Positions 17,106-32,345 of a DNA stretch of 52,218 nucleotides are shown here, one piece after another. The stretch is from NCBI GenBank assembly GCA_028289815.1, contig JAPYNQ010000031.1, positions 1 to 52,218 of the forward strand. Reading direction: 5' to 3'. The notes beneath the pieces were generated by a model. It was not told where the DNA came from. It saw only the letters and a program-made list of their open reading frames with translations, and did not search any database. The DNA comes from Gammaproteobacteria bacterium. GTDB taxonomy: Bacteria > Pseudomonadota > Gammaproteobacteria > JAJDYQ01. Position 1 is the stretch's first letter; every line of letters begins with the position of its first letter. A program made the position numbers and the translations under genes.

Positions 17106-17181
17106 GGGGCATTAGCTCAGTCGGTAGAGCAGCTGACTTTTAATCAGTTGGTCACAGGTTCGAATCCTGTATGCCCCACCA
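17106..17181 (+). tRNA. tRNA-Lys (anticodon TTT)
   Basis: A 76-base cloverleaf with encoded CCA: acceptor arms GGGGCAT/ATGCCCC, D-arm containing TAGCTCAGTCGGTAGAGCA, anticodon loop CTTTTAA with anticodon TTT at 17139-17141, and a T-arm with GGTTCGAATCC. It differs from E. coli tRNA-Lys mainly in the acceptor and anticodon stems, with compensating pairs. The defence island starts directly after its 3' end. Confidence 0.97.
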
Positions 17182-17249
17182 ACTCAAACCGCGAATCGCC
17201 AATAGCCTTTGGTGACGCACCTGCCATCCAATTGAAGTTATGTGAAGAT

Positions 17250-18380
17250 ATGAAACTGAAAAAAATCCGCTTGCAGGGGTACAAGTCCATTGACAACGAA
17301 GATGGCCAAACCATCCCCCTCGGCGACATAACGGTGCTGCTCGGCGCCAATGGTTCAGGCAAAAGCAATCTGGTCTCGTTTTTCAAGATGCTCAACTACA
17401 TGACAACCGGGGCACTTCAACAGTATGCGGGCAGGCAGGGTGCCAATCACCTGCTGTTTTATGGCCCTAAACAGACCCAATCCATTTCATTTACTCTCGA
17501 TTTTGAGTCAGATGAAGCCCATGACACATACAAGGTAAAGCTCTCACATGGGCTGCCGGACCGGATATTCATCAGCGGCGAGCAGGTTGAATACCGCAGG
17601 CCGCCGTCATCTTCACAACCACAAGAATATTACCTTGACGCCGGAGGCACTGAATCGGGATTGAGGCAGGACCATAGGAAGACCAGTGAGGTTCTGCACA
17701 AAATTCTCTCCGGCATCCGAACCTATCAGTTTCACGACACCTCGGATACAGCCAAAATCAAGGGCCGTGGCTATGTCGATGACGCAGGCTACCTGAGGAG
17801 CGATGCCGGCAATCTGGCAGCTTTTCTGAAAATGCTCAAGGAACACGAAGCATATCAAAAATACTACGCTCGCATTGTCCGCCATATCCGTCAGGTGACA
17901 CCACAATTCGGAGACTTCGACCTGGAACCGGTCCCGGGAAACGAAAACTACTGCCGCCTGAATTGGCGGGACTCTTCCGGATATGATTATCTCCTGGGTC
18001 CGGATCAGATTTCGGACGGTTCCCTGCGCTTTATGGCCCTGGTAACGCTGTTGCTCCAGCCTCCCGAACTGTTGCCGAAATTTATCGTTCTGGATGAACC
18101 GGAGCTTGGGCTTCACCCCGCTGCAATTGCCAAACTGGCAGGGTTCGTGCGCTCGGTATCACAGCAGGGCCAGGTTTTACTGGCAACCCAATCCACCGAT
18201 TTGGTAAATCAATTTTCCCTGGAGAATCTGATTGTCGTAGAAATCGAAGAGCGGGATGACAAGCATCGACATCGCTACTCTGTATTCAAAAAACTTGAGT
18301 CCGAACGATTAAAAGACTGGCTTGAGCACTACAGCCTGTCTGAGCTATGGGAAAAAAATGTACTGGGTGGCCAGCCGTGA
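17250..18380 (+). CDS. AAA/ABC-type ATPase (AAA_21, OLD/RloA-like) of a two-gene defence module
   Basis: 376 residues from ATG 17250. The frame is open back into the tRNA gene, but MKLKKIRLQGYKSI is the standard start of this family. Walker A is LLGANGSGKSNL (about residues 30-41); the signature region QISDGSLRFMALVTLLL, Walker B FIVLDEPELGLHP and the D-loop LATQSTDLVNQF complete an SMC-like ATPase head with no long coiled coil. GTGA overlap with the following DUF4276 gene shows the two form a unit. Pairs of this ATPase with a Toprim-like DUF4276 or RloB partner occur in defence islands and resemble split OLD-type and AbiL-type systems. The activity against phage is inferred. Confidence 0.85.
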   Translation: MKLKKIRLQGYKSIDNEDGQTIPLGDITVLLGANGSGKSNLVSFFKMLNYMTTGALQQYAGRQGANHLLFYGPKQTQSISFTLDFESDEAHDTYKVKLSHGLPDRIFISGEQVEYRRPPSSSQPQEYYLDAGGTESGLRQDHRKTSEVLHKILSGIRTYQFHDTSDTAKIKGRGYVDDAGYLRSDAGNLAAFLKMLKEHEAYQKYYARIVRHIRQVTPQFGDFDLEPVPGNENYCRLNWRDSSGYDYLLGPDQISDGSLRFMALVTLLLQPPELLPKFIVLDEPELGLHPAAIAKLAGFVRSVSQQGQVLLATQSTDLVNQFSLENLIVVEIEERDDKHRHRYSVFKKLESERLKDWLEHYSLSELWEKNVLGGQP

Positions 18381-19063
18381 TCCGCCTGCATATTACAACC
18401 GAAGGTCAAACAGAGCAGAACTTCGCTAAAAGGGTACTGGTGCCGCACCTGGCGAACTCCTGTGTTTCTGTCGATGCCCGGTGTGTCTTGACCAGTAGAG
18501 ACAGATGTGCGACCAGAGAATACCGTGGTGGCTTGCTGAGCTACGAGAAGGCAAAGAAAGACATTCTCTGCTGGATGAAGGAAGATGATCGTGCCGAATG
18601 TCGATTTACCACGATGTTTGATCTCTACGCCCTCCCGCAAGACTTTCCGGGTTATGACGCGGCCAAAAGACAAAGTGACCCCTACCAGAAAGTCAAACAG
18701 CTTGAAGAACAGATGGAATCGGACCTGAACGACACACGATTCATTCCCTATCTCCAGCTACACGAATTCGAGACATTGATTCTGGCAGATCCACAACAGC
18801 TGGATTGGGAATATCTGGAGCATGACACACCGATCAACAATCTGATAAAAATGGTCAGCAACCAAAACCCGGAGCTCATCAACGACAGCCCGAAAAATGC
18901 CCCGTCAAAGCGTATTAGCAGGGAAATACCGACATACGATAAAGCCACCGCCGGCGTTTCCGTCGCGAACAAAATCGGGCTTCAGACCCTCCGTGCCAAA
19001 TGCCCGCATTTCAATCAGTGGCTGACCCGTCTGGAGAAACTCAATAGCAAGGACGATGAATAG
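18377..19063 (+). CDS. DUF4276 family protein (predicted Toprim-like effector)
   Basis: 228 residues from GTG 18377, which overlaps the ATPase stop by four bases (GTGA); an upstream ATG at 18347 is in frame but would add residues absent from the family. The N-terminal IRLHITTEGQTEQNFAKRVL supplies the first strand and the conserved Glu of DUF4276. An FDLYALPQDFPG block and YLQLHEFETLILADP follow, both characteristic. By fold prediction in the literature such proteins are Toprim-like nucleases controlled by the partner ATPase; that is family knowledge, not visible here. The stop is followed by 256 bases without a gene before hsdM. Confidence 0.82.
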   Translation: MIRLHITTEGQTEQNFAKRVLVPHLANSCVSVDARCVLTSRDRCATREYRGGLLSYEKAKKDILCWMKEDDRAECRFTTMFDLYALPQDFPGYDAAKRQSDPYQKVKQLEEQMESDLNDTRFIPYLQLHEFETLILADPQQLDWEYLEHDTPINNLIKMVSNQNPELINDSPKNAPSKRISREIPTYDKATAGVSVANKIGLQTLRAKCPHFNQWLTRLEKLNSKDDE

Positions 19064-19260
19064 CTCGACCACCCCCGGCACTCTGCACATCACCATGACA
19101 CGCTGAAAACCTGCGTGAGACAAGAGCAGATAACCTGCCGCCCCCTCAGGCCAGTCGCTTTTTATCGTTCTTCTCATGTGCATTTTTCGTCTGAACGGGT
19201 ATGCTCCATACTCAACCTTTATCAGGGTCATGCAACCGGGATTATGCCACCTGGAATACC

Positions 19261-19287
19261 GGCCCGGTCAGACAAATCTGCCGGGCC
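19261..19287. terminator. GC-rich hairpin between DUF4276 gene and hsdM
   Basis: GGCCCGG and CCGGGCC form a perfect seven-base outer stem, an unpaired T follows, and CAGA/TCTG closes on a CAAA loop. It lies 33 bases before the hsdM start and ends the gap after the DUF4276 gene. No T-tract follows, so it may be a terminator or attenuator separating the ATPase pair from the hsd operon. Confidence 0.4.
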
Positions 19288-19319
19288 ATTTGCGGTCCCC
19301 AAAAGAAAAGGAAACAATC

Positions 19320-21236
19320 GTGAGCAACCATCCCGCTCGAACCGCACAAGGCACATCGACAGGCGCAAACCTCGGATTTGAGGACAAACTCTGGAGAGCG
19401 GCTGACAAACTGATCGGCATGATGGATGCTGCCGAATACAAACATGTAGTACTCGGCCTGATCTTTCTGAAATACATCTCCGATTCATTTCTTGAAAAAT
19501 ACGCGGCATTGCAAACAGAAGAGTTTGCCGACCCCGAAGACCGTGACGAATATCTGGCGGACAATGTATTCTGGGTGCCTGCCGAAGCCCGCTGGGATTT
19601 TCTGCAAGGCAAGGCCAGAGACCCGAAAATCGGTCAGCTGATCGACGATGCCATGACCGCCATTGAGCGAGATAACCCGGCACTTAAAGGCGTCCTGCCG
19701 AAAAACTACGCCCGACCGGCGCTGGATAAATCCCGGCTGGGAGAACTGATCGACCTGATTGCCACCATCGGCCTTGGTGATGCCGACAGCCGCAACAAAG
19801 ATATTCTGGGGCGGGTATATGAATACTTCCTGGGCAAGTTTGCCGAAGCAGAAGGCAAGCGCGGCGGACAATTCTATACGCCTCAATGCGTCGTCAAGCT
19901 GCTGGTTGAAATGCTGGAACCATACAGAGGTCGGGTTTATGACCCCTGCTGCGGTTCAGGCGGCATGTTTGTGCAAGCCATGAAATTCGTCCGGGCACAC
20001 TCCGCCGGGAATGGCAACGGTGCTACCCGCGGCGCAAGGCGCAATATCGCCATTTACGGCCAGGAATCCAATCACACCACCTTCCGCCTGGCCAAAATGA
20101 ACATGGCAATTCGCGGCATTGACGCCCATATCGAATGGGACGACACCTTCCTGAATGACAAACACAAAGGCCTGAAAGCCGATTACATACTCGCCAATCC
20201 GCCGTTCAATGATGAAGACTGGGGATTTTCAAAACTGAAAAAAGATGTCCGCTGGGCATTCGGCCTCCCTCCGGCAGGCGGCCGCCGCAAACAAAAAGAC
20301 GGTTCGACAATTCTGGTAGATGGCGGTAATGCCAACTATGCGTGGATACAACACTTTGTTCATCATCTGAGCCCGGCAGGAACCGCCGGTTTTGTGTTGG
20401 CCAACGGTTCCATGTCAACCAACACCTCTGGCGAAGGAAAAATCCGTCAAAAGCTGATTGAAGCCGACATGGTGGACTGCATGATTGCACTGCCCGGCCA
20501 GCTCTTCTACACCACACCGATTCCCGTCTGCCTCTGGTTTATGACCCGCTCCAAGAAAGCCAACACCAAATACGGCTACCGTGATCGTCAGGGCGAAACA
20601 CTGTTTATGGATGCCCGCAAAATGGGCACACTGATTGACCGGACACATCGTGAACTGTCAGCCGAAGAAATGACCGAAATCGCCCACACCTACCACGCAT
20701 GGCGCGGAAAAAACGGCGACTATCAGGACAAACCCGGATTCTGCAAATCCGCCCCCCTGACAGAGATTCAATCCCATCACTACGTTCTGACACCCGGACG
20801 CTATGTCGGAGCAGAAGCTATTGAAGACGACCTGCCTGCGCCGCATCCCGGAGTCTTTTATGTTTACGTTATCAAATGTCAAGGGGAATCATTTTACATC
20901 GGGCAAACTGATAACATTCCTCGAAGATGGCAGGAACACAAAATGGGTAAAGGCGCAGACTGGACAAAGAAAAATCCGCCGATCTACATCGCCCACTACG
21001 AAGAATTCAGTAATCGTGAAGAAGCTGTCGCACGTGAAAAGGAACTCAAAACAACTAATGGTCGAAGATGGATTAAACAAGCCATAAAAGATGGACGGGC
21101 GCGGCAGGCAGGCGGTATTCCCTTTGCAGAAAAAATGGCCGGGCTCACCGCCACCCTCTACGAGCAGATGCAGGAATCGACCCGCTTGGATGCAGTGATT
21201 CGGAAAAATCTGAAACTGTTAGGGTATGAAGAATAG
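19320..21236 (+). CDS. hsdM: Type I restriction-modification methyltransferase subunit HsdM with in-frame GIY-YIG insertion
   Basis: 638 residues from GTG 19320, preceded by AAGGAAA at good spacing; the upstream extension of the frame has no family similarity. Residues 17-140 form the HsdM N-terminal helical domain ([16 protein letters not shown]). The N6-adenine methyltransferase domain carries motif [11 protein letters not shown] and motif [10 protein letters not shown]. The usual C-terminal tail ([13 protein letters not shown] ... [19 protein letters not shown] ... [10 protein letters not shown]) is interrupted between EDD and GIPF by about 94 residues that form a complete GIY-YIG nuclease domain (residues about 504-597). 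HsdM dimerises and binds HsdS to methylate adenine. The insertion point is a surface linker in the tail, so methylation may survive. It is the first gene of the hsd operon. Confidence 0.92.
20831..21112 (+). mobile_element. GIY-YIG nuclease insertion inside hsdM, bounded by inverted repeats
   Basis: A 282-base (94-codon) in-frame insert. Its left end CCTGCCTGCGCCGC (20831-20844) and its right end GCGCGGCAGGCAGG (21099-21112) are inverted repeats, nine bases perfect and 12 of 14 overall. Deleting exactly this segment restores GAC-GGT-ATT-CCC, i.e. the family's EDD-GIPF junction. The encoded domain has VFYVYVIKC and [17 protein letters not shown], which supply the GIY and YIG motifs and the catalytic Arg. 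[18 protein letters not shown] supplies the catalytic Glu. It belongs to the short YhbQ-like group, which usually exists as free-standing proteins of about 90 residues. All recognisable catalytic residues are kept, so the nuclease could be active. Confidence 0.8.
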
Positions 21237-21281: not shown

Positions 21282-21698
21282 GTGATCGAGTACGATAACT
21301 TTCAAAAGGCACTTAAAAACCTTGAATCGCAAAACAAACACCATAAAACGCTTGATGAATCCCTGCCGGAGTGGATGAAAGAAGCCGTTGCCGAATCCGT
21401 TATTCAACGCTTTGAAACCTGCTGGGACTGTCTCTGGAAGGTAGTCAAACGCTACCTGGAACAAGAGCTCGGGCTTCCCGAAGTCCCCGGCAGCCCCAAA
21501 CCGGTTTTACGAATGGCACCAGAAAACCATCTTTTTTCATCGCCTGCTGAACAATGGATAACCTATGCAGATGCCCGCATCGCCACCTCCCATGACTATA
21601 GCGGACAAAAAGCCCAAAATACCTTGGTTCTGATGAATGACTTTGTCGATGATGCCATCGACCTGTACCAAACCATGAGCGGCGAGCGCTGGCAATAA
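21282..21698 (+). CDS. HEPN-domain protein, HI0074/HepT type (partner of MNT nucleotidyltransferase)
   Basis: 138 residues from GTG 21282, with GGAG upstream. The all-helical sequence (MIEYDNFQKALKNLE ... AVAESVIQRFETCWDCLWKVVKRYLE) matches 'nucleotidyltransferase substrate-binding' HI0074 proteins. A RIATSHDY stretch gives the RX4H motif of HEPN ribonucleases. In MNT-HEPN toxin-antitoxin pairs the HEPN protein is an RNase and the MNT partner inactivates it by adding AMP. The partner domain is present immediately downstream but fused to HsdS: its ATG shares one base with this gene's stop (TAATG). The pair therefore sits inside the hsd operon and is co-translated. Confidence 0.85.
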   Translation: MIEYDNFQKALKNLESQNKHHKTLDESLPEWMKEAVAESVIQRFETCWDCLWKVVKRYLEQELGLPEVPGSPKPVLRMAPENHLFSSPAEQWITYADARIATSHDYSGQKAQNTLVLMNDFVDDAIDLYQTMSGERWQ

Positions 21699-23941
21699 TG
21701 GGCAGGGAACTTGACAATATCGACCTGACAACCCCTCAGCGCAAGGAAATCACCGCCCTGCTGAAACACCACCTGCCCGACACCGAGGTATGGGCCTACG
21801 GTTCACGGGTCCAATTCACCGCCAAACCCTCCTCCGACCTGGATATAGTCGCCTTTACCACAAAAGAACAAAACCGTGCGGTTAATGACCTGAAAGAAGC
21901 CTTTGAAGCAAGCGCATTGCCGTTCCGGGTTGACCTCTTCGTCTGGGATAAGATTCCGAAACAGTTCCGTAAAAATATTGAAAAAGAACGCGTGATGTTG
22001 CAGAAGAAAAAAAAACCAAGAGGTTTGCCGGAGGGGTGGGTGGAAAAAACTCTGGGTGATGTGATTATCATCAATGATGATAATCACTCCAAAAAGGATA
22101 AATGGAAGTTTATCAATTACCTCGACACAGGGAGCCTTATCGAAAACCAGATTTCTGAAATTCAGCATTTGGCTGTCGGTGAAGATACAATACCAAGTCG
22201 AGCTAAACGCAAAATTCAGCCAGGAGACATCATTTATTCAACGGTGAGACCAAACCAGAAACACTATGGCATTCTGAAGAATCCTCCTGAAAATCTTTTA
22301 GTATCAACAGGCTTTTCCACTATTCGAGCAAAAAGTAAAGAGAGTGATACCAATTTCATCTATTGGTTTCTAGCTCAGCCTGAAACTGTAGAAAAACTAC
22401 AAATTATTGGAGAGCATAGCACATCAGCATACCCTTCAATTAAGCCATCAGACATTGAGGGACTGAAACTTAATCTCCCCCCACTCCCCGAACAAAAAGC
22501 CATCGCCCACATCCTCGGCTCATTAGACGACAAGATCGAGTTGAACCGGCGGATGAGTAAAACACTGGAAGCGATAGCCCAAGCCATATTCAAAAGCTGG
22601 TTTATCGACTTCGACCCGGTCAAAGCCAAAATAACCGCCAAGGCCAAGCTCAATAAAAAAAACACCAAACACCCCTCTCCCCACGAGGAAAGAACCGAAA
22701 ATAAAGCCACACACCCCTCTCCCCCCGGGAGAGGGGCCGGGGGTGAGGGAGACAAGGGAAGTAAGGGCAGAAAAACCCCCACCACACTACTAAACAACGC
22801 CCGAAAACTACGCCAATCAGCCACAGACGCCGAAAAACTCATGTGGCAACTACTGCGCGGCAGACAAATCAACAATGCCAAATTCAGAAGACAGCACCCC
22901 ATCGGGCAATACGTCTTGGATTTTTACTGCCATGACCTGAAACTGGCCATAGAACTTGATGGCAGTCAACACAATGAGACAGAGCAGAAGCGATATGACG
23001 ATAAAAGAACAGACTGTCTAGAACAGCAAGGCATCAGAATTTTACGCTTCTGGAACAATCAGGTCTTACAGGAAACCGAGGCGGTTTTAGAGGCTGTGTA
23101 TCAAGCGACGGTAGATTTGTCCCTCACCCCTGGCCCCTCTCCCCAAGGGAGAGGGGATGAAGAGCATCCGAGCGTTACCCTGGCCGCCATGCGTGCGATT
23201 AGTGGCAAAGACGAGGCCACCCTCAAACAACTGCAAGCCGACCAACCGGAAACCTACGAAGAACTCAAGCAAATCGCTGCACTGTTTCCGTCTGAACTTG
23301 AATATACGGAAGAGATGGAGTGGATTCCGAAGGGATGGAAGGTTAGTACGGTTGGTAATGAATTTGATGTAACTATGGGACAATCTCCTCCCGGTTCCAC
23401 ATATAACGCAATAGGTGAGGGGATACCTTTTTTTCAAGGATGTGCAGACTTCGGTTTCAGGTACCCATCGGAAAGAGTTTACTGCACAGCACCTAAAAGG
23501 TTTGCTGAGAAAAATGATACTTTAGTCAGTGTTAGAGCCCCCGTGGGTAATGTCAATATGGCGTTTGATGAATGCTGTATCGGGCGAGGTGTCGGAGCTA
23601 TACGACACAAAAGCTCCAGCCATTCTTATACCTATTATTCCATGCTTCATTTAAGGGAGCGTTTTAATACCTTTGAAGCAGAAGGGACAGTTTTTGGGAG
23701 TATACATCAGAAAGACTTTAAGGCGCTAAAGTGGCTTAGTTCAGATAGAGTTTTAATCGAAAAATATGAAAGACTTGCAGGACAATTTGATAAAAAAATT
23801 GAAGCCTGTTATAAGAATATTCTGAAACTAACTATTTCCCGAGACACTCTTCTCCCCGAACTCCTGTCAGGCGAGATACAGATATCTGAAACGAAAAAAC
23901 TGGTAAAGAATACAAATAGAAATGGAGACCAAAATGACTGA
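21698..23941 (+). CDS. hsdS: MNT nucleotidyltransferase-HsdS fusion with in-frame DUF559 insertion
   Basis: 747 residues. Residues 1-103 are a minimal nucleotidyltransferase (antitoxin type, HI0073/MntA) with WAYGSRVQFTAKPSSDLDIV, i.e. GSx10DxD, and a downstream VDLFVWD carboxylate. A run of nine A bases (22007-22015) encodes the linker. Residues about 110-250 are the first target-recognition domain (LPEGWVEKTLGDV) and 258-312 the central conserved helices (PPLPEQKAIAHILGSLDDKI, FKSWFIDFDPVKAK). Residues about 340-486 are the DUF559 insertion; then MRAISGKDEATLKQLQ resumes the HsdS central region. The second recognition domain (IPKGWKVSTVGNEF) and the closing helices (LLPELLSGEIQ) follow. HsdS sets the DNA sequence of the type I enzyme. 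Such a triple chimera is unusual; the fusion might be resolved by slippage at the A9 run. Confidence 0.85.
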   Translation: MGRELDNIDLTTPQRKEITALLKHHLPDTEVWAYGSRVQFTAKPSSDLDIVAFTTKEQNRAVNDLKEAFEASALPFRVDLFVWDKIPKQFRKNIEKERVMLQKKKKPRGLPEGWVEKTLGDVIIINDDNHSKKDKWKFINYLDTGSLIENQISEIQHLAVGEDTIPSRAKRKIQPGDIIYSTVRPNQKHYGILKNPPENLLVSTGFSTIRAKSKESDTNFIYWFLAQPETVEKLQIIGEHSTSAYPSIKPSDIEGLKLNLPPLPEQKAIAHILGSLDDKIELNRRMSKTLEAIAQAIFKSWFIDFDPVKAKITAKAKLNKKNTKHPSPHEERTENKATHPSPPGRGAGGEGDKGSKGRKTPTTLLNNARKLRQSATDAEKLMWQLLRGRQINNAKFRRQHPIGQYVLDFYCHDLKLAIELDGSQHNETEQKRYDDKRTDCLEQQGIRILRFWNNQVLQETEAVLEAVYQATVDLSLTPGPSPQGRGDEEHPSVTLAAMRAISGKDEATLKQLQADQPETYEELKQIAALFPSELEYTEEMEWIPKGWKVSTVGNEFDVTMGQSPPGSTYNAIGEGIPFFQGCADFGFRYPSERVYCTAPKRFAEKNDTLVSVRAPVGNVNMAFDECCIGRGVGAIRHKSSSHSYTYYSMLHLRERFNTFEAEGTVFGSIHQKDFKALKWLSSDRVLIEKYERLAGQFDKKIEACYKNILKLTISRDTLLPELLSGEIQISETKKLVKNTNRNGDQND
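22007..22015 (+). repeat. A9 homopolymer at the MNT-HsdS junction
   Basis: Nine consecutive A bases encode lysines between the end of the MNT domain and the first HsdS recognition domain. Runs of this length allow transcriptional slippage, which here would separate or restore the fusion, and are also prone to sequencing error. Confidence 0.6.
22714..23156 (+). mobile_element. DUF559 (Vsr-like) nuclease insertion inside hsdS, bounded by palindromic inverted repeats
   Basis: The left end (22714-22750) and the right end (23120-23156) are 37-base inverted repeats, 33 of 37 identical; each is itself a palindrome (CCCCTCTCCC, 3-base loop, GGGAGAGGGG). They encode the PSPPGRGAGGEG and LTPGPSPQGRG peptides often seen beside DUF559 genes. 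Between them residues 365-472 of the host protein form a DUF559/Vsr-like endonuclease domain: ARKLRQSATDAEKLMWQLLR, FRRQHPIGQYVLDFYC, AIELDGSQHNE (catalytic Asp and ExDG) and IRILRFWNNQV. A partial extra repeat copy lies at about 22671-22692. The unit is 443 bases, not a multiple of three, so some flanking sequence must have adjusted to keep the host frame. Confidence 0.75.
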
Positions 23942-26576
23942 TACATATACCAAGGCTCAATTCTGGAAATGTGCACTTCAGGTAAATTCACATACCTATC
24001 CCGCTTTACGTGGTGAGGAAAATACTATGACGGAAATAGAATATAACCAGCAACTATTAAAAATTTGTAAAGCAGAAAACATCAAGGTATTAGGTATTGC
24101 AGATCATGGCAATGTCAGCAATGTCGAAGCTATTCGAAACATAATGAAACCGGAAAATATTTTAGTGTTTCCAGGATTTGAAATTGCTTCAAGCGAAAAA
24201 ATCCATTTCGTATGTCTGTTTGATGGAAATAAGACAGTAGAAGAATTGAATCAATACTTAGGAAAACTGGATGCGAAAAGCACTAATCCTTCTACGTTGA
24301 GTGCAGAAGAAATATTCAAACGTATAGAAGATTTAGATGGCTTCTTTTATGCAGCACACTGTACAAATGATAGCGGGTTGCTTAAACAAAAAATGGATCA
24401 TATTTGGAAAAACAAATTACTTAAAGTAGCACAAATTCCAGGAGCTATTGATGATTTGAAAAGTACTAATGATGACTTTTATCACAAAGTTATTCGGAAT
24501 AAAGAACCGAACTATCGAAGAGAAACATCCATTGCTATTATCAATGCCAAGGATGTAGATAAGCCAGAGACCCTGAAACATCCTTCAGCTTCATGCCTCA
24601 TTAAAATGACTAATCCTTCATTTGAAGCATTCAAACTAGCTTTCCAGGATCCAGATTCACGAATACGTCTGAATAGTGATCTTGCAAAACAATATTACTC
24701 TCGCATAGAGTCAGTGAAGATTAAAGGAGGTTATCTGAACGAAGTGGAAATCAATTTCTCAGAGCATTTAAATGCAGTAATCGGCGGGCGAGGAACCGGA
24801 AAATCGACTTTGCTTGAGTGTATTCGTTACGCGTTGGGATTAATTCCCATCACAAAAAATGCACAGAAGCAACATAATGAAATCATAAAAGAAAATATTG
24901 GAAAGTCCAAAGGATGGATCGAATTGATTGTCCGCTCGTCAAAAATGGATAGCAAAAGATATACGATTTCCAAACGTTTTGATGAAAGTATCAATGTAAG
25001 AGATGAGAATGGAAATATCTCCAGTTTTACACCTGGAGATATTCTACCGAATATTGAAATTTATGGACAGAACGAAATTCATGAAATTGCTCATGATAAT
25101 CAGGCTTATGAAAAATTACTACATCGTTTTCTGGGAAATGAGCATGATCAATATAAAGAAAAAATCATAGAAACACTGAATGCCCTTGAAAAAAATCGCT
25201 CCAGTTTGAATAAAGTAATAGAAAACAAAGCAACTACTGAAGAAAAGTTAAACCAATTGTCAAAACTGTGCGAACGTGAAGAGCAATTCAATAAATTGGA
25301 GATTGAAGATAAGCTCAAAATTATTCCCTTTCTAGAGAAAGAAAAAAGACTTAAAAATCGTGCTAAAGAAGAATTGGAAAACTTTAAAAAGGTATTAGGG
25401 CAAGTAATAGAAGCTCTACCGAATAAGGTCTTTCTCTCTGACAAGGTAATTGAAAAACTCCCTCATACGGATATTCTTGGAAAAATAAGAGAAAGCCTTG
25501 ATCATCTCAATAAAGATGCAAAAGTGCTTCTGAATCGACTCAATACCAAATTTGCAAAACATAGCGATTTAACCACCAAACTGATAGACAGTTTACAGGA
25601 AGACATTCGTTCAAATGAAGAAGAACTTGAAAAAACCTTCAAAGAACTTCCATCCAGTCAAGGAAAAAGTGGATCAGAAATCGGCAATGAATACCAACAA
25701 CTTTTACAGAGCATTGAGAAAATCAAACCACAGCAAGACAATCTTACGCGCCAAAAAAATTGGGAAAAGGAATTGCAAGAACAACGAAAATCCCTTTTGA
25801 CTGAACTATCAGAGTATCGAGCAAGCCAAACAGCATTCTTTGAATCTTCACTTAAAAAGTTAAACCACAAGCTCAAAAACAAGTTAAGATTAACAATAAA
25901 GCCCAAAGCATCCCGGCAACCAGTAATTGATTTTCTCCTGAAATGTAATCTGGAAAATGTGGCAGAAAACCGTCTTCAATGGATTTCTAAAGAAGATGAT
26001 TTTTCTCCAGTAAAACTAGCAGAACTGATTGAAAAAGGAAAAGATGCCTTAACTGATTCTGATTGGAAAATCACACCGACTGTAACCGAAGCACTAACCA
26101 GACTATCACCTTCTAAAATTTTGCAACTTCAAGAACTGGAACTGCCCGACCTTATCGAAATTGAATTAAATACAGCGCATGAAGGAAGTATTAAATATCG
26201 TACCCTTGATAAACTTTCAAGAGGTCAACAATGCACTGCAATACTGCATCTTCTTTTGCTGCAAAACAAAGATCCCCTGATTATGGATCAACCGGAAGAC
26301 AATCTGGACAACGCATTTATTGCTGATCGCATTGTAACGGAACTAAGAGATGCCAAACTGGGCCGACAATTTATTTTTGCAACCCATAATGCCAATATTC
26401 CTGTATTCGGAGATGCGGAATGGATTGGTGTATTTAATGCCGTTGACGGACAAGGAATAATTCCCACAGAAACCCAAGGCGCGATTGATGTTCCGACTGT
26501 GAGAGAAAAAGCAGCCAGTATCCTTGAAGGGGGCCAAACTGCCTTTAATCAGCGAAAACTCAAATATGGTTATTAG
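23934..26576 (+). CDS. TrlF-like PHP-domain/SMC-type ATPase
   Basis: About 880 residues from ATG 23934, which is served by GGAG at 23924-23927 and overlaps the hsdS stop. Residues 1-210 form a PHP-type phosphoesterase domain (VNSHTYPAL, LGIADHGN, VFPGFEI, FYAAHC); the first motif has Asn where HxH is expected. Residues 260-880 are an SMC/Rad50-like ATPase: Walker A VIGGRGTGKST, a long charged coiled-coil centre (about 390-620), signature KLSRGQQCTAILHLLL, and Walker B DPLIMDQPEDNLDN. This matches TrlF-family ATPases, which are frequent companions of type I restriction loci. The gene is distinctly AT-rich compared with the rest of the operon, indicating a separate origin. Function is probably nucleic-acid sensing or cleavage; inferred. 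Confidence 0.82.
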   Translation: MTDTYTKAQFWKCALQVNSHTYPALRGEENTMTEIEYNQQLLKICKAENIKVLGIADHGNVSNVEAIRNIMKPENILVFPGFEIASSEKIHFVCLFDGNKTVEELNQYLGKLDAKSTNPSTLSAEEIFKRIEDLDGFFYAAHCTNDSGLLKQKMDHIWKNKLLKVAQIPGAIDDLKSTNDDFYHKVIRNKEPNYRRETSIAIINAKDVDKPETLKHPSASCLIKMTNPSFEAFKLAFQDPDSRIRLNSDLAKQYYSRIESVKIKGGYLNEVEINFSEHLNAVIGGRGTGKSTLLECIRYALGLIPITKNAQKQHNEIIKENIGKSKGWIELIVRSSKMDSKRYTISKRFDESINVRDENGNISSFTPGDILPNIEIYGQNEIHEIAHDNQAYEKLLHRFLGNEHDQYKEKIIETLNALEKNRSSLNKVIENKATTEEKLNQLSKLCEREEQFNKLEIEDKLKIIPFLEKEKRLKNRAKEELENFKKVLGQVIEALPNKVFLSDKVIEKLPHTDILGKIRESLDHLNKDAKVLLNRLNTKFAKHSDLTTKLIDSLQEDIRSNEEELEKTFKELPSSQGKSGSEIGNEYQQLLQSIEKIKPQQDNLTRQKNWEKELQEQRKSLLTELSEYRASQTAFFESSLKKLNHKLKNKLRLTIKPKASRQPVIDFLLKCNLENVAENRLQWISKEDDFSPVKLAELIEKGKDALTDSDWKITPTVTEALTRLSPSKILQLQELELPDLIEIELNTAHEGSIKYRTLDKLSRGQQCTAILHLLLLQNKDPLIMDQPEDNLDNAFIADRIVTELRDAKLGRQFIFATHNANIPVFGDAEWIGVFNAVDGQGIIPTETQGAIDVPTVREKAASILEGGQTAFNQRKLKYGY

Positions 26577-26587
26577 AGGTGGTTCTC

Positions 26588-27823
26588 ATGCTAAAAACCG
26601 AATTACAGGAAATCATAGCCAACGGAGAAAACTCCGGTGTTGAGTTTAAGCGTGACGATATTCGTCCCGAGCAGCTGGCTAAAGAGGTTGTGGCGCTGGT
26701 TAATTTTCAAGGTGGAAAAGTAATTTTAGGCGTTGACGATGACGGTGCCATTGCAGGGATTACCCGCCCGGATGCCGAGGAGTGGGTCATGAATGTCATT
26801 GCAGAGAAAGTACATCCGGCAATTCTGCCTTTTTATGAAGAAATCCAGGTGAACAGTGGCATCAGGGTTGCGGTACTTACCTTCCCTCAAGGTAATTCCA
26901 AACCCTATGTACGCCGACATAATAATGCCGAAGAGGTGTTCATCCGGGTGGGTTCTACATCCCGACTTGCAACACGGGAACAGCAAATGCGTCTGTATGA
27001 GATCGGCGGAATGCTTCACACCGAGGCATTGCCTGTATCCCGGACCACATCCGGTGTCCTGGACCGGGTACGCATAGAAAACTATCTCACGGATGTTTTG
27101 CGCGATCCGGATATCCCTGAAGACGATCAGGAGTGGGAACATCGCCTCGTCAATCTCGGCTTGCTTACGGCACCACAGGGAATGGCTACCGTAGCGGGAC
27201 TCGTTTTGTTTGGAAAACAGCCACGGCAACACTTGAGACAGGCCGGAATCAGGGTTTTTGTATTCGACAGTATCGAAAAAGAATACCAGGCAAAGCTGGA
27301 TCGTATTCTGGATGCCCCATTAGTGGCGCGGCTTGATTTTTCTGAGGGGGAACGGCGTATTGTGGATAACGGATTGGTTGAAAAACTGCTTGATGCTGTC
27401 GGGCCTTTCATCTTGCAGGAACCAGCGGAGGTGAATGAGGGGCTAAGACGGGATAAGAGATATGCCTTTCCGGTTGAGGCTATTCGGGAGGTTTTAATCA
27501 ATGCGCTTGTCCATAGAGACTGGACCCGTTTTGTCGATATTGAGATTGGTATTTACAGTGATCGCCTGGAGATCATCAGCCCGGGCGGGCTGCAAAACTC
27601 AATGACGGTCGAAAAGATGGTCGCGGGACAACGATATACCCGGAACACAACGATTATGGAAATCATGCGTGATTATGGCTATGTGGATTTTCGGGGAATG
27701 GGCATAAGAACCAAGGTGATACCGTTAATGAAACGGCGTAATAATTCCGAACCGATCTTTGAGGCAACAGAAGACTATTTGAAAACCATTTTATACCGCA
27801 AAGATAGCCAGATCGGTTCATAG
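26588..27823 (+). CDS. AlbA_2 (Schlafen-type) / HATPase_c_4 ATP-binding protein, first copy
   Basis: 411 residues from ATG 26588, preceded by GAGGTGG at five bases; an in-frame GTG at 26579 lacks such a site. The N-terminal 130 residues form the AlbA_2/Schlafen AAA_4 domain (GENSGVEFKRDDIRPEQLAKEV, ALVNFQGGKVILGVDDDG). Residues 260-400 carry a GHKL-like region (FPVEAIREVLINALVHRDW, RLEIISPGG, FRGMGIR). Such proteins are common beside type I restriction genes and may act as regulators or effectors. It is followed two bases later by a second, diverged member of the same family. Confidence 0.83.
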   Translation: MLKTELQEIIANGENSGVEFKRDDIRPEQLAKEVVALVNFQGGKVILGVDDDGAIAGITRPDAEEWVMNVIAEKVHPAILPFYEEIQVNSGIRVAVLTFPQGNSKPYVRRHNNAEEVFIRVGSTSRLATREQQMRLYEIGGMLHTEALPVSRTTSGVLDRVRIENYLTDVLRDPDIPEDDQEWEHRLVNLGLLTAPQGMATVAGLVLFGKQPRQHLRQAGIRVFVFDSIEKEYQAKLDRILDAPLVARLDFSEGERRIVDNGLVEKLLDAVGPFILQEPAEVNEGLRRDKRYAFPVEAIREVLINALVHRDWTRFVDIEIGIYSDRLEIISPGGLQNSMTVEKMVAGQRYTRNTTIMEIMRDYGYVDFRGMGIRTKVIPLMKRRNNSEPIFEATEDYLKTILYRKDSQIGS

Positions 27824-27825
27824 CC

Positions 27826-29010
27826 ATGCACGCCAAAGGCGAATCCCAGAACACCGAATGGAAAACATCGTGGCAGGATGACTATCTGAAATGGATCTGC
27901 GGCTTTGCTAATGCTCAGGGCGGACGGATTTATATCGGTAAAGATGATGGCGGAAATGTCATCGGTTTGAAGAATGCCGGGAAACTGCTGGAAGACTTGC
28001 CGAACAAGGTTCGTGATCGGTTAGGACTGATACCGCACATCAATCTGCTCGAAGAGGATGGAAAAAACTATCTGGAAATCATCGTCGAGTCATCAACTGT
28101 GCCAATTTCCCTGCGCGGTTCCTATTACTGGCGCTCCGGCAGCGTGAAGCAAGAATTAAAGGGTCAGGCGCTGACCGATTTTCTTCTCGAAAAAATGGGT
28201 TTGACTTGGGATCGGGTGGTCGAAAAAACAGCGACGCTGGATAACATCGACGAAACCGCTATTGAACAATTCAGGAAAGATGCGGCAACGGCAGGTCGTT
28301 TACCCGATTTAAGCAGGCTTTCAGCCGAGCGGGTTTTAACAAAACTGCGCGTTCTCACCAAAGACGGCCTTACTCATGCCGCTTTGATTCTTTTCGGTAA
28401 AGATCCGGGAGAGTTTTTCCCGAATCTTTTTGTAAAGATCGGGCGATTTGGCAAAAGCACGGTGGATATGCGCTTCCAGGAGGTTTGTGAAAGAAACCTG
28501 ATTCAGCTTCTCAGCGATGTCATGGAGCAACTGGAAAAGAAATTCTTGATCAAGCCGGTGCGCTTTGAAGGCATCCGACGCATTGAAGAATTGGAGTATC
28601 CGGTGGCGGCTTTACGGGAAATGCTGCTCAATGCGCTGGTGCATCGCAACTATCTGGGCAGTATGACCCAGATAAAGATATTTAATGATCGGCTGACCAT
28701 CTGGAATGCCGGCCAACTCCCTGCAGAGTTGACCATTGAGAAACTGTTTCAGATGCACGAATCCGTCCCGCGAAATCCGCTGATTGCCGAAGTGTGTTAC
28801 AAGGCCGGCTACATTGACTCGTGGGGGCGCGGGGTTGAGAAAATCACAGACGCTTGCCGACAGGCCGGATTGCCCGGCCCAATCATTGTTGAAAGAACCG
28901 GGGGTATAGCCGTTGAACTGCTCAAAAATCAGGTGAAAACGCCGGTGAAAACGCCGGTGAAAACGCCGGTGAAAACGTCGGCCCTCAAAAAGGCGGCCGC
29001 TGGCAGGTGA
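27826..29010 (+). CDS. AlbA_2 / HATPase_c_4 ATP-binding protein, second copy, C-terminally altered
   Basis: 394 residues. AlbA_2 domain at the N-terminus (SQNTEWKTSWQDDYLKWICGFANAQGG, IGKDDGG), HATPase_c_4 at 240-360 (YPVAALREMLLNALVHRNYLG, GRGVEKITDACRQAGLP). Full-length relatives continue after a VKTP repeat linker into a winged-helix domain that ends in 'VGPKKGGHWEV'. Here the VKTP repeats (28932-28979) are followed by only a few residues in a shifted frame. The expected ending VGPQKGGRWQVIK is present in the +1 frame (about 28978-29018). So the winged helix has been deleted through the repeats and the last codons are out of frame. The GHKL part looks intact. Confidence 0.82.
   Translation: MHAKGESQNTEWKTSWQDDYLKWICGFANAQGGRIYIGKDDGGNVIGLKNAGKLLEDLPNKVRDRLGLIPHINLLEEDGKNYLEIIVESSTVPISLRGSYYWRSGSVKQELKGQALTDFLLEKMGLTWDRVVEKTATLDNIDETAIEQFRKDAATAGRLPDLSRLSAERVLTKLRVLTKDGLTHAALILFGKDPGEFFPNLFVKIGRFGKSTVDMRFQEVCERNLIQLLSDVMEQLEKKFLIKPVRFEGIRRIEELEYPVAALREMLLNALVHRNYLGSMTQIKIFNDRLTIWNAGQLPAELTIEKLFQMHESVPRNPLIAEVCYKAGYIDSWGRGVEKITDACRQAGLPGPIIVERTGGIAVELLKNQVKTPVKTPVKTPVKTSALKKAAAGR
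28932..28979 (+). repeat. 12-base tandem repeat encoding VKTP
   Basis: Four head-to-tail copies of a 12-base unit (GGTGAAAACGCC; the last ends GTC). They encode a (VKTP)n linker at the C-terminus of the second AlbA_2 protein and mark the point at which the reading frame is lost. Confidence 0.9.
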
Positions 29011-29014
29011 TTAA

Positions 29015-29158
29015 ATGATGAAGTACCGGCTAATCAGCTTTTGCAGTCCGGAACCTCAACCGGTACCAATTACAACAATTATTCAAGCATCCGATGAAAC
29101 CGTCCGCATCTTTTTCACTGTTAAGGCATCCCAAACCGACGGCATAAATGAAAAATAA
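29015..29158 (+). CDS. Small ORF between AlbA_2 gene and hsdR
   Basis: 47 residues (MMKYRLISFCSPEPQP ... ASQTDGINEK), no family recognised. Its ATG overlaps in ATGA fashion the ancestral stop codon (29016-29018) of the AlbA_2 frame described above, and its own stop overlaps the hsdR start by 11 bases. This position between two coupled genes is the only support; no clear ribosome-binding site is seen. Confidence 0.4.
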   Translation: MMKYRLISFCSPEPQPVPITTIIQASDETVRIFFTVKASQTDGINEK

Positions 29159-32100
29159 CTCATCACCTGCCAAAATGTCAGAGTACAGTTTGGAGCAAGC
29201 CTGCCTGCAATGGTTGTCCGAACTCGGCTGGTATTCAATCCACGGGCCGGACATCGCCCCGGATACCCCTGATGCAGAACGCATAAGCTACTCTGGGGTG
29301 ATTCTTAAAGAACGGTTGAGGACTGCACTTTCGCGGATCAATCCCGGTATTCCTGCCGTCGGCATTGATGAGGCAGTAAAAAAATTACTGGTGGCTGACT
29401 CCCCGGATCTGCTGGTCAATAATCGCACCTTTCACAACATGTTGACCGACGGTATTGATGTTGAAGTATCATCAGAAAGCGGGCACAACGGTACCCGATA
29501 TCGGAAGGTGTGGCTGGTTGATCTGGAAAACATCGACAATAATAATTTTATCGCTGTAAACCAGTTTACCTGTATTGAAGAAGGGCATGATCGTCGGGCA
29601 GATGTTGTTTTGTTTTTGAACGGTCTGCCTGTCGTCATCTTTGAATTAAAGAATCCGGGCAATGAAAATGCGACTATAAGACAGGCCTTCAATCAGCTTC
29701 AAACCTATAAAAAAGACATTCCGATATTATTTACTACCAATGAACTGCTGGTGATCTCCGATGGCATACTTGCCAGGGCCGGAACCCTGACCAGCGAGTG
29801 GGACCGTTTTATGCCCTGGCGAACCGTCTCCGGTGAGGAGGTAGCTGCAAAAGGAACCCCTGAGTTGGCAACTCTGATCAGGGGGCTTTTCGAGCGGCGA
29901 CGCTTTCTCGACTATATCCTGAATTTTATTGTCTTTGAGGATGACGGTTTCAGGTCAGCCAAAAAGGCTGCCGCCTATCACCAATACTGGGCGGTGAATA
30001 AGGCATTGACCTGTACCCTGTCGGCCTGTGGCATAGACACCGACCCGGAAAAATTGATTGGCCGTTTCCCGCCTGTACAACCTCCCTTGGGAGTCAAAGA
30101 AGATGCGCCTGTCTATGGAAAAGGGTCAGGACATTTTGACGGCAGGAGAATCGGTGTCATCTGGCATACACAGGGAAGCGGCAAAAGTCTTTCCATGACA
30201 TTTTATGCCGGGAAGGTTGTCCGTCATCCCGATATGAACAATCCGACCCTGGTTATTGTGACGGATCGAAATGATCTGGATGATCAGCTCTTCGGTACAT
30301 TTGCTGGCTGCCGGGACCTGCTTCGTCAATCCCCGGCTCAGGCCAGAGCTCGGTCCCATCTCAAGGGACTGTTGAAAGTCCCCTCCGGCGGAATTGTTTT
30401 CACGACCATTCAAAAATTTATGCCGGACGAGCGCGGCGATGCTCACCCCCTGTTGTCTGGCCGTAAGAATATTGTAGTGATCGCAGATGAAGCCCATCGC
30501 AGCCAGTATGATTTTATTGATGGCTTTGCACGGCATCTGCACGATGCCTTACCGAATGCCTCATTTATCGGTTTTACCGGGACCCCGATTGAACGTGACG
30601 ACAAAAGCACCCCGGCGGTTTTCGGTAACTACATTGATAAATATGACATTCTGCGTGCGGTTGAGGACGGGGCCACAGTGCCAATCTACTATGAAAGTCG
30701 GCTGGCCCGAATTGAATTGAGTCAAGCTCAACTGGCCGCAATTGACCCGGAGTTTGAGGCGATCACAGAGGCAGAGGAAGAAACGGACAAACAACGGCTC
30801 AGAACAAAATGGGCGGCATTTGAAGCCCTGATCGGTACCGATGAGCGCATCAAGCGGGTTGTCGAGGACCTGGTTTCTCATCTTGAGAGCAGACTCGATA
30901 CGATGGACGGCAAAGCCCTGATCGTCTGCATGAGCCGCCGTATCTGCGTCGATATCTATAATGCCCTCAAGGCAATCCGACCGGACTGGCACAGCGAGGA
31001 CGAAGCAAAGGGCTTTATGAAGATCGTGATGTCCGGGTCTGCTTCGGATCATATTGACTGGCGGCCCCACATCCGTAACAAGGTCGGACGCGAAGCTCTG
31101 GCCAGGCGGTTCAAAAATCCCGGCAGTAACCTCAAATTGGTCATCGTCCGTGATATGTGGTTGACCGGCTTTGACTGCCCCAGCCTGCATACCATGTATA
31201 TCGACAAACCCATGAGCGGGCACAATCTGATGCAGGCCATTGCCCGGGTCAACCGGGTATTCCGGGATAAGCCCGGCGGGCTTGTGGTTGACTATATCGG
31301 TCTGGCAGATTCATTGAAAAGAGCACTTGCCAATTACACCGCCGGCGGCGGTCAAGGCGCTGCTACGGTCGATCAGGAACAGGCCGTAACAGTGCTCATG
31401 GAAAAATACGAGATTGTGCGCGATATACTGCATGGCTTTGATTACACCGCTGTGCTTAAAGACATTCCGGCCGGAAGAATATCCGGTATAACACAGGCGA
31501 TGGAGTTCATTCTCGGCCTGGAAGATGGCAAAAAACGCTATCTTCCCGCCGTCTCTGCGCTTACCAAGGCGTTTGCGCTTGCGGTTCCACATGAACAAGC
31601 CATTCGGGTTCGTGACGAAGTCGGCTTCTTTCAGGAGGTCAGGGCTGCGCTGGTCAAGGCTACCGGTGATGCGCAGGGACGGACACCGGATGAAATGGAT
31701 TCGGCCATAAAACAACTGGTTTCACAGGCCGTATCATCAACCGGAGTGATTGATATCTTTGCGGCGGCCGGCATGGATAAGCCGGATATCTCCATTCTGT
31801 CGGATGATTTTCTGGAGGAAGTCAAAGCCCTGCCACAAAAAAATCTGGCTCTTGAACTCCTGAAAAAACTGATCAACGACGAGATCAGAACATGTTTCAG
31901 GAAAAACGTCATTCAGGCCCGATCATTTGCAGCAATGCTGGAGCAGGCGGTGAAAAAATATCAGAACCGTGCGATTGCGGCGGCTGAGGTCATACAGGAG
32001 CTGATTGAACTTGCGCGAGAACTCCGACAATCTGAACAGCGTGGCGACAGCTTGGGCCTGACAGAAGATGAAATCGCTTTTTACGATGCGCTGGCAGACA

Positions 32101-32345
32101 ACCACAGCGCACGGGACATCATGGGTGACAAAAAACTTTGCACCGTAGCACAGCTGTTGGTTGAACGGGTAAAACGCAGCGTCTCTATTGACTGGACTCT
32201 GCGAGAAAATGCCCGCGCTCAAATCCGGGTAATGGTTAAAAAAATACTCCGCCAGTATGGCTATCCACCTGACCTGCAAAAAGCCGCGACAGAACTGGTG
32301 ATTGAGCAGGCCGAGATGCTCTGCAGGGAATGGAGCGTGGGGTAA
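29148..32345 (+). CDS. hsdR: Type I restriction enzyme motor/nuclease subunit HsdR
   Basis: 1065 residues, normal for the family. The N-terminal PD-(D/E)XK nuclease domain shows RRADVVLFLNGLPVVIFELKNP (residues about 147-168) with the QLQTYK motif following. The helicase/translocase core has Walker A HTQGSGKSLS (about 340), DEAHRSQY (about 447) and GFTGTPI (about 473); the second RecA-like domain holds LTGFDCPSLHTMYIDKP and ARVNRVFRDKPGG. The C-terminal helical region binds HsdM/HsdS. Together with hsdM and hsdS it completes a type I restriction-modification enzyme. It is separated from them by the trlF, two AlbA_2 genes and a small ORF, an order typical of accessory-loaded type I loci. Confidence 0.95.
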   Translation: MKNNSSPAKMSEYSLEQACLQWLSELGWYSIHGPDIAPDTPDAERISYSGVILKERLRTALSRINPGIPAVGIDEAVKKLLVADSPDLLVNNRTFHNMLTDGIDVEVSSESGHNGTRYRKVWLVDLENIDNNNFIAVNQFTCIEEGHDRRADVVLFLNGLPVVIFELKNPGNENATIRQAFNQLQTYKKDIPILFTTNELLVISDGILARAGTLTSEWDRFMPWRTVSGEEVAAKGTPELATLIRGLFERRRFLDYILNFIVFEDDGFRSAKKAAAYHQYWAVNKALTCTLSACGIDTDPEKLIGRFPPVQPPLGVKEDAPVYGKGSGHFDGRRIGVIWHTQGSGKSLSMTFYAGKVVRHPDMNNPTLVIVTDRNDLDDQLFGTFAGCRDLLRQSPAQARARSHLKGLLKVPSGGIVFTTIQKFMPDERGDAHPLLSGRKNIVVIADEAHRSQYDFIDGFARHLHDALPNASFIGFTGTPIERDDKSTPAVFGNYIDKYDILRAVEDGATVPIYYESRLARIELSQAQLAAIDPEFEAITEAEEETDKQRLRTKWAAFEALIGTDERIKRVVEDLVSHLESRLDTMDGKALIVCMSRRICVDIYNALKAIRPDWHSEDEAKGFMKIVMSGSASDHIDWRPHIRNKVGREALARRFKNPGSNLKLVIVRDMWLTGFDCPSLHTMYIDKPMSGHNLMQAIARVNRVFRDKPGGLVVDYIGLADSLKRALANYTAGGGQGAATVDQEQAVTVLMEKYEIVRDILHGFDYTAVLKDIPAGRISGITQAMEFILGLEDGKKRYLPAVSALTKAFALAVPHEQAIRVRDEVGFFQEVRAALVKATGDAQGRTPDEMDSAIKQLVSQAVSSTGVIDIFAAAGMDKPDISILSDDFLEEVKALPQKNLALELLKKLINDEIRTCFRKNVIQARSFAAMLEQAVKKYQNRAIAAAEVIQELIELARELRQSEQRGDSLGLTEDEIAFYDALADNHSARDIMGDKKLCTVAQLLVERVKRSVSIDWTLRENARAQIRVMVKKILRQYGYPPDLQKAATELVIEQAEMLCREWSVG

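Follow-up and report, generated by a model that had tools for sequence, protein, structure and literature searches.

A predicted AMPylating antitoxin domain joined to the specificity subunit of a type I restriction–modification system, next to a putative HEPN RNase toxin

The 52,218-nucleotide contig JAPYNQ010000031.1 of a gammaproteobacterium (GenBank assembly GCA_028289815.1, GTDB lineage JAJDYQ01), analysed at its full length and referred to here as the window, carries a type I restriction–modification (R–M) locus in which the specificity subunit HsdS is fused to an MNT nucleotidyltransferase domain and follows directly on a gene for a HEPN protein. The genes follow in the order hsdM, HEPN, MNT-HsdS, three other genes and hsdR, and the four named genes lie on the + strand. 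hsdM (19176..21236, although the true start may be downstream of 19176) encodes the N6-adenine methyltransferase subunit (PF02384, E 8.7e-101; PF12161, E 3.6e-24), and hsdR (29148..32345) encodes the restriction subunit, with HSDR_N, SWI2_SNF2 and T1RH-like_C domains. With the two PF01420 stretches of HsdS added, the locus encodes the full type I set of M, S and R.

The MNT-HsdS gene is a single uninterrupted frame of 747 codons (21698-23941) that encodes a complete MNT domain and a full HsdS with two Methylase_S stretches in the same protein. The MNT domain forms the N-terminal part (amino acids 1-105, 21698..22012); it matches HI0073 (1no5, E 4e-16), scores above the cut-off for Polbeta/NTP_transf_2, and in Foldseek aligns with HI0073 with a template modelling (TM) score of 0.92 and also matches the solved Legionella MNT antitoxin 8xeo. 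On the curated MntA equivalog NF047752 it reaches 30.7 bits against a cut-off of 60, and it is assigned to the HI0073 branch, outside that equivalog. The GSX10DXD motif is an exact match (21800..21844; G35 and S36, then D47, L and D49) in which F40 of the G-loop replaces the usual glycine, and D79 provides the third carboxylate. G35, S36, D47, D49 and D79 are all kept in 17 of 17 aligned fusions.

The HsdS part matches several HsdS structures in Foldseek searches. It comprises a first target recognition domain with the first conserved helix (22028..22570; PF01420 at amino acids 111-291) and a second recognition domain with the second conserved helix (23312..23878), which is detected by a PADLOC specificity-subunit profile at amino acids 539-727 and by Foldseek matches to HsdS structures. 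In the structural model of the window protein the last MNT element is the strand at residues 99-102, followed by a linker of about 12 residues with lower confidence and then by the first HsdS strand, so that the MNT C terminus appears able to carry another domain. The Legionella MNT likewise lacks the C-terminal α4 helix that docks on HEPN in other MNTs, and the C-terminal end of an MNT of this type would therefore be free for fusion.

The HEPN gene (21282..21698), with a GTG start and a TAA stop that ends at 21698, encodes a 138-amino-acid putative RNase toxin of the HI0074 family (PF08780, E 4e-20; phmmer match to HI0074, 1jog, E 3.4e-7). The protein scores above the PF08780 cut-off and reaches 52.9 bits on the curated HI0074 subfamily model TIGR01987, the cut-off of which is 55.8. 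PF08780 is the sole domain detected in it, and the domains of PrrC (ABC ATPase and anticodon nuclease) were not found in it. The AlphaFold model (predicted local distance difference test score 93.9) aligns with HI0074 and with solved structures of the Legionella HEPN toxin in mutant, AMPylated and complexed form. The RX4HXY motif is present as R99-IATS-H104-D-Y106 (21576..21599); the tyrosine of this motif is a known AMP acceptor in the superfamily, and Y106 is the expected acceptor here. A QRFE motif (Q42 and E45; 21405..21416) coincides in position with the reported metal site of the Legionella HEPN, in which Q44 and E47 are proposed to form a metal-dependent RNase site (PMC11586414). Among 22 aligned HEPN partners, R99 and H104 are kept in all, and Y106, Q42 and E45 each in 21. 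The HEPN stop codon and the MNT start codon overlap by exactly one base (TAATG at 21698; ...GGCAATAATGGGC...). The active sites are thus intact in both proteins, and the arrangement described in an earlier note on this DNA, an antitoxin domain with an intact GSx10DxD motif that is physically part of HsdS and linked to the HEPN gene by one base, is borne out in each of these respects.

The fusion recurs well beyond the window. An MNT profile was searched against 369 genomes from the class and 398 from the phylum; with a scan of contigs and a search of plasmids added, this yielded 98 classifiable MNT loci. These are 19 MNT-HsdS fusions (the window included), one MNT-HsdM fusion, nine MNT genes beside a separate or broken hsdS, four beside hsdM only and 65 for which that screen detected no R–M gene. 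Two extra MNT-HsdS fusions, L123 and L209, fall outside this table and bring the number besides the window to 20. Orthologous loci are therefore mostly fused, which goes against the alternative raised in the earlier note that they are consistently split. A HEPN gene lies upstream in the other fusions, being unseen only in L114, and hsdM precedes HEPN in most cases where the contig allows this to be seen. The hosts belong to three phyla: Gammaproteobacteria, Alphaproteobacteria and another class of the same phylum, Planctomycetota (Ca. Scalindua) and Verrucomicrobiota. In six fusions both the MNT and the HsdS domains have Pfam support. The fusion on the closed Zymomonas plasmid pZMOB01 (Alphaproteobacteria) is annotated as one coding sequence, 'restriction endonuclease subunit S'; as the antitoxin is hidden in at least one such annotation, a HEPN gene beside an hsdS of this kind can resemble an orphan toxin. 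No MNT-HsdS fusion was found in the viral contigs and phage records searched.

An MNT tree places fused proteins in both main clades. The alignment is short, at 105 columns, and many forks are weak, but of the 12 label changes that the tree needs at least four are forced by well-supported branches. A single origin of the fusion was rejected on these grounds, and the tree needs the fusion to have been gained or lost several times. The window falls in a clade (support 99/94) together with two further fusions and one with a broken frame. The ratio of non-synonymous to synonymous substitution rates (dN/dS), calculated for pairs with unsaturated dS, is 0.12-0.37 for the fused MNT domains and 0.13-0.30 for the HEPN genes that accompany fusions, showing purifying selection on both partners at the sequence level. 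Since unrelated bacteria share the join, it is probably genuine wiring of a suicide RNase to an anti-phage enzyme.

Some loci depart from the standard arrangement. At L108:2194-5880 the order is HEPN, MNT-HsdM fusion, second HEPN, MNT-HsdS fusion, with an HsdS that has no recognition domains; since MNT is here fused to HsdM beside its own HEPN gene, the antitoxin appears to travel with modification subunits. In L122, which is from the window's genus, and in L112, a tandem HEPN pair precedes one MNT-HsdS fusion, and one MNT perhaps serves two HEPN proteins. In the fusion at L109:2-1294, MNT and HsdS are separated by part of a further MNT C terminus, a layout that recombination between two MNT genes would produce. 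HEPN genes of this family are present in 40 of 48 genomes of the class to which genome G370 belongs, often several per genome, and several of the pairs adjoin R–M remnants.

The residue at position 40, the third after GSR, is W or F in 16 of 17 aligned fusions and glycine in most free MNTs. Counted over all loci, an aromatic W or F occupies this G-loop position in 18 of 21 fusions versus 8 of 76 others (Fisher 9e-11, raw), and two of those eight are the broken fusions L034 and L157. After correction for shared descent there are six independent pairs, of which four are concordant and none discordant (p 0.125). The aromatic residue is a lead, and may mark a contact with HEPN or with the R–M complex.

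Our preferred reading, to which we give a probability of about 60%, is that the locus is a type I R–M operon with an embedded type VII-like HEPN-MNT toxin–antitoxin module, in which the antitoxin enzyme is the N-terminal domain of S and the toxin has a guard-like trigger. HEPN would be translated first and MNT-HsdS next, coupled through the one-base overlap. The MNT domain would then AMPylate Y106 of HEPN and so keep the RNase silent. As the M2S methyltransferase is built around S, this silencing activity would be delivered by the modification complex and tied to its supply. If M2S were lost, blocked or degraded, for example by phage infection or loss of the whole operon, newly made HEPN would stay unmodified and growth would stop. 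The enzymatic part of this scheme follows the Legionella HI0073/HI0074-type pair, in which the HEPN RNase is poly-AMPylated by MNT (PMC11586414). AMPylation, HEPN toxicity and the guard-like trigger are proposed by analogy, the last with the function of PrrC in EcoprrI, which is unleashed upon inhibition of EcoprrI (PMC3874165, PMC12707154).

The likeness to both systems has limits. Compared with HepT-MntA type VII modules, of which the closest tested pair is the Legionella pneumophila HEPN-MNT (8xeh, 8xdj), and with HI0073/HI0074, the window proteins share the folds (0.82-0.86 for HEPN and 0.80-0.92 for MNT in Foldseek, TM by target), the RX4HXY, QxxE and GSX10DXD motifs and the adjacent, overlapping genes. 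They differ in that the window antitoxin is the N-terminal domain of HsdS, has an aromatic residue for the G-loop glycine and lies inside a type I R–M operon. The window and EcoprrI both have a latent RNase gene inside a type I R–M operon, in the window the HEPN gene between hsdM and hsdS, with the RNase proposed to be silenced by the R–M enzyme. The window RNase, however, has no ABC ATPase, and the proposed silencing is enzymatic AMPylation by a domain of HsdS instead of sequestration, so that the likeness is one of function only.

The HEPN-MNT pair can also be followed in loci where the R–M genes are split or decayed. On Acetobacter plasmids hsdM, HEPN, MNT, hsdS and hsdR are separate overlapping genes, with an MNT/hsdS overlap of 1-8 nucleotides; the gene order is the same as in the window, but MNT and HsdS are separate and the G-loop glycine is kept. 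Several other seeming splits (L157, L039 and L034) are damaged loci. L157 has a single stop codon right after MNT, followed by an otherwise in-frame truncated HsdS, an HsdM stub and an HsdR fragment, and looks like a former fusion severed by one stop codon; L039 has a stop after MNT and then a broken HsdS. A C-terminal HsdM stub lies upstream of the HEPN-MNT pair in L154, L125, L135 and L136, and more weakly in L150, and an N-terminal HsdM stub is present in L138, L156 and L160.

These loci alter one claim of the earlier note, that loss of HsdS would free the HEPN RNase. MNT is the N-terminal domain, so truncating mutations in HsdS spare it; the claim thus fails for nonsense and frameshift losses, in which MNT is still made, as in L157 and the decayed loci that keep HEPN-MNT. 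It holds to the extent that a trigger could still come from loss of the whole gene, a block of transcription, proteolysis or an inhibitor made by a phage.

The fate of HEPN where MNT is missing is mixed. In L201, where MNT-HsdS is deleted, an HsdR fragment comes straight after HEPN, and the catalytic histidine of HEPN is changed to tyrosine; L023 has HEPN without MNT, with both motifs lost; and a HEPN-anchored search found a truncated HEPN in L207. The same search found motif-intact HEPN genes without an adjacent intact MNT in L200, L205 and L206, and a rule by which absence of MNT always entails loss or mutation of HEPN, with which the first three loci agree, was rejected for this reason. The pattern fits a need for the antitoxin while HEPN is active, and in the exceptional genomes MNTs encoded at other sites may take over this role.

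Three points weigh against the preferred reading. Loci L125, L135, L136, L154 and L157 retain MNT without HsdS, so HsdS is seemingly dispensable for neutralisation. The motif-intact genes of L200, L205 and L206 make a strict dependence of HEPN on an MNT in cis doubtful. In addition, the family includes many solitary HEPN-MNT pairs, so the link to R–M is not obligatory.

A possible but doubtful alternative is that the fusion acts by plain addiction or expression coupling: it would do no more than tie production of HEPN and its antitoxin to that of the R–M operon and stabilise the operon, with no sensing role for HsdS. The relic loci in which HEPN-MNT is retained as hsdM and hsdS decay are expected under such a scheme, as are the degraded HEPN genes of the two loci with a lost or absent MNT (L201, H to Y; L023, both motifs) and the overlapping MNT and hsdS genes of the split Acetobacter operons. 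However, an antitoxin at the N terminus gives the downstream HsdS half no protection from loss. Moreover, MNT has been fused repeatedly to S, and once to M, where co-transcription would suffice, which suggests that location matters, and the aromatic G-loop change tracks fusion.

Rather unlikely is the view that MNT and HEPN are not a toxin–antitoxin pair and form a two-part nucleotidyltransferase, with HEPN as the substrate-binding subunit, that modifies the R–M enzyme, DNA ends or another target. This was the original interpretation of HI0073/HI0074 and is still reflected in Protein Data Bank and Pfam names, but published work on the Legionella pair, which is of this type, describes an RNase toxin and an antitoxin that AMPylates it (PMC11586414), and the conservation across HEPN partners of RX4HXY, including the acceptor tyrosine, and of QxxE also speaks against it.

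The linker between MNT and HsdS is encoded in part by a run of nine A bases (22007..22015), which the earlier note had suggested could slip to make both fused and unfused products. The run is there, but its role as a phase-variable switch between MNT-only and MNT-HsdS products is quite improbable. In translation tests an A8 or A10 variant ends the frame within about 20 codons and gives an MNT-only protein of 121 or 120 amino acids. In the sister locus L034 the two parts are one frame apart at the A7 run of this joint, and the HsdS frame has no start codon near the normal N terminus. Against this, the longest run at 17 other fusion joints is 3-7, and the run is thus absent as a conserved feature from other joints. 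The lysine codons here are 274 AAA and 95 AAG, which gives a probability of 0.41 that three consecutive lysines are encoded as AAA AAA AAA, and the A9 run is best taken as the expected outcome of a lysine-rich linker and as no conserved device. Other such runs are present, with a second A9 at 37930-37938 and an A8 at 22655-22662 in the MNT-HsdS gene itself. L034 is a metagenome assembly, for which an indel error or a mutation is equally likely; it keeps a small chance for phase variation at the joint, which we consider unlikely. That a homopolymer error in a draft genome of 89 contigs has joined truly separate MNT and hsdS genes is a negligible prospect, given independent fusions without a long homopolymer at the joint, including that on the closed plasmid, and given that, of the three nearest relatives in the MNT tree, two are fusions and the third is a fusion with a broken frame.

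Both modification subunits of the window carry in-frame nuclease inserts. The C-terminal region of HsdM contains a GIY-YIG nuclease domain (20847..21104; PF01541, E 9e-14), a clean insert of about 95 amino acids that is absent from five other HsdM proteins compared. The central linker of HsdS contains a DUF559 domain with a Vsr-like nuclease fold (22673..23160; PF04480, E 7e-39), which is an insert relative to other HsdS proteins and is bounded by CCTCTCCCC/GGGAGAGGG inverted repeats, with repeats at 22673, 22715 and 23135. Neither insert has a second close copy elsewhere in the genome. The inserts may alter the methylation or restriction activity of M and S. The Scalindua HsdS (L033) has a comparable proline-rich, repeat-like stretch at the position of the DUF559 insert. 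Directly 5′ of hsdM (17148-19063) lies an AAA_21 ATPase and DUF4276 pair that matches the candidate defence system HEC-01 in PADLOC. The three genes between hsdS and hsdR (23922-29010) encode a large ATPase, with Ppl as its best PADLOC match, and two proteins that match Argonaute-system profiles (pAgo and SIR2-PNTD).

HEPN-MNT modules are known already, as are their clustering with R–M operons and the existence of RNase guards within type I operons. A fusion of MNT to HsdS goes unmentioned in the full-text literature searched, including the 2009 and 2013 surveys and R–M reviews; this is weak evidence of novelty, as subscription papers are little covered by such text. According to the 2013 survey by Anantharaman and colleagues (PMC3710099), the fusion partners of HEPN domains in R–M systems are restriction, helicase and ATPase subunits, but not methylases. 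In those proteins, as in the window, a HEPN system is physically linked to R–M, but there the toxin is on the restriction side and here the antitoxin is on the modification side. Antitoxin fusion to S, and once to M, is the complementary rule to that for HEPN.

A broader interpretation, which we hold tentatively and at somewhat less than an even chance, is that these loci represent a repeatedly evolved class of type I R–M systems with an embedded HEPN RNase, the AMPylating antitoxin of which is borne by the modification core. The cell would be protected twice, by DNA methylation and by adenylylation of the RNase; any phage factor that disables the modification core would trigger RNA cleavage; and the aromatic G-loop residue would mark adaptation to the tethered role. 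If the fused domain does work as an antitoxin, restriction and abortive infection would be coupled in one polypeptide and the guarding of R–M would become directly testable. The idea embodied by PrrC would then extend to a family of RNases that is common and is silenced in another way, by an enzyme.

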